A DNA stretch of 36,739 bases, taken from the NCBI GenBank assembly GCA_001464585.1, contig LNFF01000030.1:1-36739 (forward strand), read 5' to 3'. The position numbers and the translations under genes are program-made. The notes under the pieces were generated by a model. It did not search any database. It was given only the letters and a program-made list of their open reading frames with translations, and was not told the origin of the DNA. Shown here piece after piece: positions 33,055 to 35,098 of the stretch. The stretch is from Gammaproteobacteria bacterium Ga0077554. GTDB lineage: Bacteria > Pseudomonadota > Gammaproteobacteria > Ga0077554 > Ga007554. Numbering within the stretch: position 1 is the stretch's first letter; each line of letters opens with the position of its first letter.

Positions 33055-34146
33055 ATGCCCTACCATAAAGTCTATCGCACCCTGCTGTTATGGCTACTCT
33101 GGGCGTCCTTTGCCATTACCGTAATTTTAGGTTTATACATTGATACCGCCGTATGGGAATTCGTAAAACACGATAGCACCAAACTGACCTGGGTTATTCT
33201 GTTGCTATTTTTATTAAGCACTGCCATCAGCCTGTGGCTCACCATCACCCTCACGCGCGAATCTGTCGAATTAATAGAAGTCGATTATGCCGCCCGTCAG
33301 CAAGGCTTGATGGGCATCATCACTACCCCCGAAAACAATGCCGTGCGGCGTTTTTTTAACTCGCTAAAAGCCGTGGTAATGGTCAACGGTGATAACAATC
33401 TGGAAGCGCTGCTTGCCACTGAGCTTGCCTTCTATCAGCGCGTCAGCCACGGCCTGGCGGTGACCGGCAATCTACTCATCATGCTCGGCTTGATCGGCAC
33501 CGTCATCGGCTTGAGCATCACCCTGTCCGGGCTCAGCACTTCGCTTGACGCCCTGGGCCACGACGAAACCCTGTTGCTCGAAGGCCTGCGCAAAGCCATG
33601 AGCGGTATGGGCACCGCTTTTTACGCCACACTATTGGGCGCCGTGTTTGGTGGGCTCCTGTTACGCATATTTGCCTTGATCACTGAAACTGGCGTGGAAG
33701 ATATCGGCGATCGCATCATGAAAATTTCCCTGGTATATTGCGCCGCAGACTGCAAACGCACCGAAGAAAAAGACGTGCGCATCCTCAATGGCGAGATCAT
33801 CGCACTTACAGAAAATGCAAAATTGATGGCAGAAGCTTTCGCCGAATCCCGCGCAGCGATGACGGCATTTCATGAAGAAGCCAAACGCCTGCACCAATTT
33901 AATAATGCGGACGCAACAGGCGACGACATCGCCGCATTGCGCGAAGCGATCCGCATGCAGAAACATTATCGCGCCTTATTGCGCCAGGAAATCAAACTGG
34001 TGGATCAGGTTAACCGTGCCTGGTGGCCGCCATTGCTCAGAGTGTTTATGTCCAAACGTAAATCTCAAGCCATGGCGCCCACCCCGTCCAATCCAGCCAA
34101 GCCCGATAACAAGACCCCGGATATAGATATAAAGGAAAGCCCATGA
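33055..34146 (+). CDS. MotA/TolQ/ExbB-type channel subunit
   Basis: The 363-residue protein has four predicted membrane helices: about 9-28, 43-65, 134-158 and 185-210. A roughly 70-residue cytoplasmic segment lies between helices 2 and 3, the layout of MotA and ExbB/TolQ proteins. Helix 3 reads LGLIGTVIGL and helix 4 GTAFYATLLGAVFGG, both hallmarks of this proton/ion-channel superfamily. A long charged helical tail (about 211-335) extends into the cytoplasm and ends in a Pro/Lys-rich stretch. Its stop overlaps the next gene's ATG (ATGA), so the two are coupled. No flagellar or tonB genes are near, so it is neither a plain flagellar stator nor a TonB energiser. Confidence 0.85.
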   Translation: MPYHKVYRTLLLWLLWASFAITVILGLYIDTAVWEFVKHDSTKLTWVILLLFLLSTAISLWLTITLTRESVELIEVDYAARQQGLMGIITTPENNAVRRFFNSLKAVVMVNGDNNLEALLATELAFYQRVSHGLAVTGNLLIMLGLIGTVIGLSITLSGLSTSLDALGHDETLLLEGLRKAMSGMGTAFYATLLGAVFGGLLLRIFALITETGVEDIGDRIMKISLVYCAADCKRTEEKDVRILNGEIIALTENAKLMAEAFAESRAAMTAFHEEAKRLHQFNNADATGDDIAALREAIRMQKHYRALLRQEIKLVDQVNRAWWPPLLRVFMSKRKSQAMAPTPSNPAKPDNKTPDIDIKESP

Positions 34147-34916
34147 GAAGCAAGCGACGGCGCTTCATGGATGAAAGCGTATTTGTTACCTATTCAGACA
34201 TGGCATTGTTGATGCTCGTGATTTTCATCTTTTTGTTTACCATCATGGTCATCACCTCACGGCTTTCAGGCGGCAGTCAGGTTTCAACTGTCAAAAATCA
34301 GGTAAAAGAATTACAGCAGCAGTTGGCTTCCGCTGAAGCAGACAAAAAAAGCCTGGAAAAAAACATGGAGGAAATCATCACCAGCAGTGAAGAAAGCCAT
34401 CTTGAAAAAATCATCGAAACCTCCACTTTTGGCCGCAAGGATTTCGATCTGTTCATTAAAGGATTGCAGGAATTACCCGGCGACGACTTGCATCTGGTGA
34501 TAGATGCGTCCGGCTCAATGCACGGCCTGGCGTCATTTTTAGTGCCGGTGTTGAGATTAATTGTTACAAGGTCCGGCAAGCGCTTGGCTGCCATTACCTG
34601 GTTTTCTGACAACAAAGCCGACACCTACATCGGCAGCATGGGTGAAATGTTTGACAAGTTGATGCGCGGCGCGCCTTTCTACGGCAGCGTAGAAAGCGTC
34701 GGCCACGGTTTCCGCGCCGCCGCCAGAAACGCGCCGCCGCCCGGCGCTTATTTACTGGTAGGCGACGAACCCGCCAACGACACCGTCTATTACGATCGCA
34801 TCCCCAGCCCCGCCTTCACCCTGCCCCTGGGACGATCAGACCCCGCCACCAATCTCAGCTATGGCACCATCGCCACCAAAACCGGCGGCAAAATGTTACA
34901 TCTGGATTTCAAATAG
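34143..34916 (+). CDS. MotB/ExbD-type anchor fused to a vWA domain
   Basis: The 257-residue protein has a basic cytoplasmic start (MRSKRRRF) and one membrane helix at about 20-38. It is preceded by YSDMALL, the position where MotB has YADF with its essential proton-carrying Asp (here Asp19). A Gln/Glu/Lys-rich coiled coil follows (about 50-92). From about 112 on is a von Willebrand A domain with a complete MIDAS start, DASGS (Asp121, Ser123, Ser125), plus LVGDEPAND later. MotB/ExbD relatives normally end in a peptidoglycan-binding OmpA or a short periplasmic domain, so the vWA replacement is unusual. With the upstream channel subunit it should form an ion-driven inner-membrane complex presenting a metal-dependent adhesion domain to the periplasm; this is inference from domain order. 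Confidence 0.85.
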   Translation: MRSKRRRFMDESVFVTYSDMALLMLVIFIFLFTIMVITSRLSGGSQVSTVKNQVKELQQQLASAEADKKSLEKNMEEIITSSEESHLEKIIETSTFGRKDFDLFIKGLQELPGDDLHLVIDASGSMHGLASFLVPVLRLIVTRSGKRLAAITWFSDNKADTYIGSMGEMFDKLMRGAPFYGSVESVGHGFRAAARNAPPPGAYLLVGDEPANDTVYYDRIPSPAFTLPLGRSDPATNLSYGTIATKTGGKMLHLDFK

Positions 34917-34964: not shown

Positions 34965-35098
34965 TGTAGCGAGCAAGTAAACTGTCCTAAGTTGTAAGTT
35001 GTAGCACATGATCTGTCCGGTTTTATAGTGGCCTTCCACAGGGGGGTAAGCTATGAACCATGTGCTACAACTTTAGGACAGCTTACTTGCTCGCTACA
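34965..35098. mobile_element. 134-bp miniature inverted-repeat element
   Basis: The ends are long imperfect inverted repeats: the left begins TGTAGCGAGCAAGTAA and the right is its complement, ending TTACTTGCTCGCTACA. The match continues inward through CTGTCCTAA and GTTGTAGCACATG, with a small insertion on the left, for about 40 bp. Only about 50 bp lie between the arms, with no transposase. TGT...ACA ends are found in several insertion-sequence families, so this may be a deletion derivative of one. I see no clear target duplication. It directly abuts the prs fragment. Confidence 0.8.

Follow-up and report, generated by a model that had tools for sequence, protein, structure and literature searches.

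A MotA/TolQ-family channel gene paired with a single transpore helix-vWA gene in Gammaproteobacteria bacterium Ga0077554, and its candidate partner c2

The MotAB, ExbBD and TolQR machines provide the precedents for 5:2 rotation of membrane complexes with a mid-membrane aspartate (PMC9389320). Proteins termed 'transpore helix-vWA' (TPH-vWA), associated with TolQ, were described in 2025 with an Idiomarina query (PMC12204202, Mol Biol Evol 2025, Fig. 4c,d), together with an AF3 model of the TolQ and TPH-vWA architecture. In the passages of that paper which describe them, these systems are proteobacterial, contain no TolR/ExbD gene and have no function assigned, and their vWA genes are 'predominantly found in heterologous pairs'. 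A literature search yielded this as the one describing paper, and a survey of the relatives of MotAB published in mBio in 2025 (PMC12505986) makes no reference to vWA. The combination of a motor with a vWA domain is itself already published, and the novelty that the preliminary description of the present locus had claimed for this architecture does not stand.

The window analysed here is the whole 36,739-nucleotide stretch of contig LNFF01000030.1 from Gammaproteobacteria bacterium Ga0077554, and the locus under study comprises two of its genes, A and B. As in the published systems, a TolQ-like gene lies beside a TPH-vWA gene, with no TolR/ExbD gene (72/72 testable loci). The A/B family represents a distinct version, with a single vWA gene per locus where the vWA genes of the published systems are mostly paired, an invariant glutamate at the MIDAS threonine position, a chromosomal location and largely vertical descent, the two groups being set apart by the published description of those systems rather than by the Idiomarina reference sequence.

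The channel subunit A and its partner B

The features of gene A are:

33055..34146, + strand: gene A, divergent MotA/TolQ/ExbB-family channel subunit, 363 aa (Pfam, AF2, Foldseek, synteny)
33487..33513, + strand: GLIGTVIGL, A residues 145-153, including pore Thr149 (T149 invariant in 72/72 A proteins)
33610..33639, + strand: GTAFYATLLG, A residues 186-195, including pore Thr192 (T192 invariant in 72/72 A proteins)
33763..34062, + strand: predicted cytoplasmic helical tail of A, residues 237-336 (AF2 helices 237-285 and 291-336)

Protein A matches the Pfam family MotA_ExbB above its cut-off (E 2e-7; 31.3 bits vs 22.9), and the MotA/ExbB signatures pointed out in the preliminary description, LGLIGTVIGL and GTAFYATLLGAVFGG, are present. 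In the single-chain AlphaFold2 model four long helices are followed by a helical C-terminal tail, and the closest solved folds identified with Foldseek are those of ExbB, TolQ, MotA and ZorA (best E 1.8e-3). The tail, which extends for about 100 residues past the last membrane helix, is weakly conserved, with E312 occurring in 52 of the 72 A proteins. Seven other MotA/ExbB-family matches are encoded in the genome from which the window derives, all of them stronger and more typical than A, and A/B therefore constitutes an addition to the usual motors.

The features of gene B are:

34143..34916, + strand: gene B, transpore-helix, coiled-coil and vWA protein, 257 aa (ORF, AF2, fold comparison, alignment)
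34176..34268, + strand: MotB-like transmembrane helix, B residues 12-42 (AF2; sub-threshold MotB_plug match at 14-37)
34197..34199, + strand: Asp19 of B, predicted ion-binding residue (invariant, 74/74)
34281..34421, + strand: predicted coiled coil/linker, B residues 47-93 (AF2 helices 47-80 and 83-93, low pLDDT)
34470..34913, + strand: predicted periplasmic vWA domain, B residues 110-257 (VIA-align, Foldseek)
34503..34517, + strand: MIDAS motif DASGS, B D121-S125 (D121, G124 and S125 invariant; S/T123 in 74/74)
34692..34694, + strand: Glu184 of B, at the canonical MIDAS Thr/Ser position (E in 74/74)
34764..34766, + strand: Asp208 of B, third MIDAS motif (GDEP; D208 and E209 invariant, 74/74)

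Both genes are complete and overlap by an ATGA at 34143-34146, which serves as the stop of A and the start of B, confirming the coupling noted at the outset. The single-chain AlphaFold2 model of B contains one helix at residues 12-42, a second at 47-80 and an alpha/beta domain at approximately 110-257; the confidence of the single-chain predictions is modest, with pLDDT values of 74.9 for B and 78.8 for A and a pTM of 0.60. A single membrane helix with a conserved aspartate, as is characteristic of the partner subunits of the motor superfamily, is present in B, and its MotB_plug match falls below the Pfam cut-off (E 2.6e-4; 20.9 vs 24). Conservation of this helix and its aspartate in homologs, on which the preliminary description had made its proposal of a stator-like pair depend, was observed throughout the alignment. 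With the pore threonines of A likewise conserved, that proposal, including the replacement of the peptidoglycan-binding domain by a vWA domain, is borne out, as is the coiled coil at the level of prediction.

The N-terminus of B is cationic and rich in arginine and lysine. According to the positive-inside rule, a cationic flank marks the cytoplasmic side of a membrane helix, and the vWA head is consequently likely to be periplasmic. The vWA fold was found by structure comparison only, with a Z-score of 14.9 and 2.5 A over 144 residues in VIA-align, where many vWA and I-domain structures were matched, and with Foldseek E-values of 7e-5 to 1e-3 against vWA chains; comparison of the B sequence with the PDB gave no vWA match. 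The 'intact MIDAS start' of the preliminary description holds in part, as D121, S123 and S125, and in addition D208, are kept, while the full DxSxS...T...D ligand set is not: DxS/TxS and D208 occur in all 74 proteins, with glutamate in place of the threonine. Glu184 was placed by sequence alignment rather than by coordinates, the reference being the MIDAS serine in a Bat-like vWA protein that the genome also encodes. The invariant glutamate at this position suggests that the metal site is occupied by the protein's own carboxylates. Integrins possess an open, ligand-accepting MIDAS, whereas the site of B would be filled by its own acidic residues.

The A/B pair thus shares with TolQR, ExbBD and MotAB the fold of A, the mid-membrane aspartate of B and the pore threonines. 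Where these machines have a periplasmic domain of the peptidoglycan-binding, TolR or ExbD kind, B has none of these, and its load domain is a vWA domain. With ZorAB it shares a MotA-like subunit with a cytoplasmic helical tail, a MotB-like partner and weak profile similarity; in contrast to Zorya, A/B has no defence partner genes and shows no mobility, and the vWA domain replaces the periplasmic domain of ZorB.

Distribution, descent and gene neighbourhood

The alignment set comprised 74 non-redundant B proteins from a genome sample that includes fragmentary MAGs, with 72 loci testable for A and the other two cut by contig ends. Gene A lies immediately upstream of B in all 72 testable loci, and both this pairing and the conservation of D19 are well beyond chance. 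The A family is discrete in profile searches, with members below 1e-110 and all other proteins at 6e-23 or weaker. Relatives of B are encoded in all eight sampled genomes of the window's family, in 33 of the 369 class genomes as strong matches, with one weak partial match also counted in each class tally, and in 44 of the 398 genomes sampled across the phylum. Besides the window's own genome, nearly all of those in the phylum sample belong to family f207. Their B sequences form one clade in the B tree which includes a Mariprofundus sequence, and f207 is therefore probably the Mariprofundaceae.

The B gene tree follows families, with the zetaproteobacterial group and the window's family each forming one clade (100/100 in both cases). 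A/B is chromosomal and its descent largely vertical. A mobile-element or phage origin was considered and rejected, as searches of phage, plasmid and viral-contig collections recovered no A/B relative. The pair is usually present in single copy. Two or more copies are encoded in G247 (C1:987345-988112 and 3102056-3102835), G465 (two on C3), G394, G404, G429 and G488, and in the B tree the branches leading to the second copy of G247 and to one copy of G394 are long, possibly reflecting a diverging paralogue.

In the window's family the gene order gltB-gltD-hemE-methyltransferase-Nudix-A-B is conserved as local synteny, and the neighbours of A/B are housekeeping-like. The Nudix and methyltransferase genes, which the preliminary description had considered as possible linked parts, were rejected as components of the system because they adjoin A/B in this family only, aside from one further locus for the methyltransferase. 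Just downstream of B, at 34965-35098 of the window, lies a 134-bp element with nested inverted repeats of 26 nt (96%) and 15 nt (100%); contigs C15 and C27 of the window's genome carry partial copies of it, and it is perhaps a miniature mobile element.

Of 46 A/B loci examined with a pattern search, 45 contain exactly one TPH and vWA ORF; the exception has a second match, to a short ORF of 180 aa about 3.4 kb away, and the positive control, locus L122, has two such ORFs. In these 46 loci A/B was not accompanied by a second vWA gene or by a TolR- or ExbD-like partner gene. Locus L122 (3614-6473, genome G031) codes for a TolQ-like protein followed by two vWA proteins that differ from each other, 335 and 349 aa long, a gene arrangement that matches Fig. 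4c of PMC12204202; this paired type was observed in one of the 369 class genomes. L122 is only a distant relative of A/B: among non-members its TolQ-like protein scores best with the A profile (E 6e-23; members <1e-110), and the similarity of its vWA proteins to the B profile is confined to their N-terminal part and extends no further than the first MIDAS motif. Assignment of the paired type to the same family was rejected, given its rarity (1/369) and a vWA part that does not align with B beyond the first MIDAS motif. A further arrangement, at L123 (3868-5774), consists of a TolQ-like gene and genes for a protein of ~200 aa with a transpore-like helix (DPFTDLLFNxLLGFTFLF) and a two-helix protein of ~172 aa. 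Trios of this type also occur at L126, L128, L129, L132, L134, L135 and L137, in at least eight genomes, and are apparently uncharacterised; the second and third proteins of the L123 trio, the one examined, have no Pfam match.

The polytopic protein c2 and the oxidase cluster

Tabulation of the conserved neighbours, as had been proposed for this locus, revealed that a gene coding for a polytopic protein of ~490 aa, given the working name c2, recurs beside A/B across lineages. Depending on the lineage it directly adjoins A/B on the upstream or the downstream side, and in three zetaproteobacterial loci it lies near A/B. Copies include L054:10698-12179 and its relatives, and in the window's genome c2 (C40:12672-14072 of G000) and the oxidase cluster described below sit elsewhere, outside the window. 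All eight genomes of the window's family encode c2, at a place unlinked to A/B. In a targeted test of 57 genomes, c2 was found in 25 of the 27 genomes with A/B and in none of the 30 without (Fisher, 3.5e-14 by genome and 1.4e-8 by family), relatedness being controlled at family level only and the negatives forming a small sample. With kinship and negatives so limited, the co-occurrence could stem from a shared chemolithotrophic lifestyle rather than a direct functional connection. Taken with the adjacency in two gene orders, it supports c2 as a specific partner of A/B. The protein is not mentioned in those passages of PMC12204202 that describe the TPH-vWA systems.

In an alignment of 33 c2 proteins over their length, two features are invariant: the acidic residue E37, which follows the first helix, and the motif P63-D64-x-R66. 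Two of these 33 members match PMT_2 in Pfam (best E 3.3e-5) and one matches Glyco_transf_22, while the PMT_2 match of c2 from the window's genome falls below the cut-off. For most members Pfam gives no match, none of those compared with NCBIfam has one there, and a PDB search gave no match. The weak PMT_2 and GT22 matches in a minority of members suggest a GT-C-like fold, as a lead only. The polytopic character and the acidic motif after the first helix are shared with GT-C/PMT_2 glycosyltransferases; unlike these enzymes, c2 is for the most part without matches in Pfam and has none in the PDB. On the other side of c2 are found mutM, a DUF4340 protein and a conserved ABC transporter made up of a GldG-like subunit (ABC_transp_aux), an ABC-2 permease and an ATPase, in about 15 loci (e.g. 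L189:2420-6307 and L193:4082-7109).

A cytochrome c4 gene adjoins c2 in 20 of 26 c2 loci and represents the cytochrome c end of an oxidase cluster, which codes for a cytochrome c4-like protein, a NorC-like cytochrome, a SCO-like protein and divergent cbb3-type CcoN, CcoO and CcoP-N proteins. In five genomes, drawn from three families, A/B and c2 share a strand and are separated by a stretch of 17-20 kb. In one genome per family (G087, G184 and G028), read gene by gene, the oxidase cluster fills this stretch, with CcoG present in two of them. CcoG also neighbours A/B in gamma- and zetaproteobacterial loci. A/B is thus linked to the oxidase cluster at the level of lineages, in several of them. 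At L199 (1-20000), L200 and L201 the cluster lies between c2 and A/B, with CcoN of 468-475 aa, and additionally codes for a separate, short protein of ~175 aa that resembles the COX1 C-terminus.

Proposed function and alternative explanations

The reading we favour is an envelope task performed together with c2, in which A/B forms a 5:2 ion-driven inner-membrane machine with periplasmic vWA heads and does not act in phage defence; we put its probability at roughly 0.68. By analogy with the motor family and in view of the invariant residues, five A subunits would encircle a homodimer of B, and Asp19 of B would carry ions past the ring formed by Thr149 and Thr192 of A. Ion flow may then turn or pull the B dimer, so that the two vWA heads, placed on the coiled coil in the periplasm, would serve as the working end, their metal site probably being occupied by acidic residues of B itself. 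In the cell envelope the machine may act alongside c2, a polytopic protein in its own right whose fold possibly resembles that of GT-C glycosyltransferases. We infer the stoichiometry and topology, the turning or pulling movement, the kind of ion, the use of metal and what the heads would grip.

The genomic setting would also accommodate a role for A/B and c2 in the assembly or maturation, e.g. metal insertion, of the divergent cbb3-type haem-copper oxidase, which we regard as unlikely, if the foremost of the alternatives. A/B would here be the ion-driven, periplasmic-side counterpart of NorQ-NorD, the AAA+/vWA pair that matures nitric oxide reductase, whose vWA member, NorD, has an enzyme of the haem-copper family as its target. 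The spacing of A/B and c2 in the five genomes, the presence of the cluster between them in the three that were read gene by gene, the position of c2 at its cytochrome c end in 20 of 26 loci, the CcoG genes beside A/B in both gamma- and zetaproteobacterial loci and the NorD precedent are consistent with such a role; a NorQD chain is also among the Foldseek matches of B, as any vWA chain would be. In the window's own family, however, A/B is unlinked to the oxidase cluster, synteny among related genomes is not independent, and NorD is cytoplasmic whereas the head of B should be periplasmic. Ranking below this, a gated ion channel or sensor is improbable: binding of a periplasmic ligand by the vWA head would open ion flow, and the tail of A would relay the state. 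ZorAB is thought to relay its state through the cytoplasmic tail of ZorA, and the possession of such a tail, of ~100 predicted helical residues in A, is common to A and ZorA but not to TolQ or ExbB; vWA is a ligand-binding fold. The tail of A is, however, poorly conserved, no conserved cytoplasmic effector gene occurs beside A/B, and the invariant residues of A/B correspond to those with which MotAB and TolQR generate torque. The boldest reading, a long shot placed lower again, is that A/B and c2 together form an ion-motive-force-powered periplasmic machine for the maturation or coupling of the divergent cbb3-type oxidase in chemolithotrophic proteobacteria. If true, a 5:2 motor with a vWA head would do the work performed elsewhere by ATP-driven AAA+/vWA pairs, and if the oxidase link holds, respiratory-enzyme biogenesis would join the short list of jobs of ion-driven rotary machines.

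The Zorya-like anti-phage defence role with another load, raised in the preliminary description, is very improbable and was abandoned. The PADLOC similarity on which it could draw is weak (ZorA1 E 9e-8; ZorB1 E 4e-5) and lies in the shared membrane parts, and the NCBIfam Zorya scores reach 14-22 bits against cut-offs of 100-500. No recurring ZorC, ZorD or ZorE neighbour or defence-island setting was observed in about 46 loci. The single copy usual for A/B, its presence in every sampled genome of its own family, the largely vertical tree, the housekeeping neighbours and its absence from the phages, plasmids and viral contigs searched likewise argue against defence.

The vWA-tipped 5:2 motors reported in 2025 were described without a known function, partner or phenotype. 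The A/B family is a compact, single-vWA version conserved across the whole family, and it supplies a specific third protein, c2, that co-occurs with A/B almost one to one as a candidate component. In many lineages it borders an alternative cbb3-type oxidase locus. The c2 protein and the place beside the oxidase make the question of what a vWA-headed motor pulls on testable.
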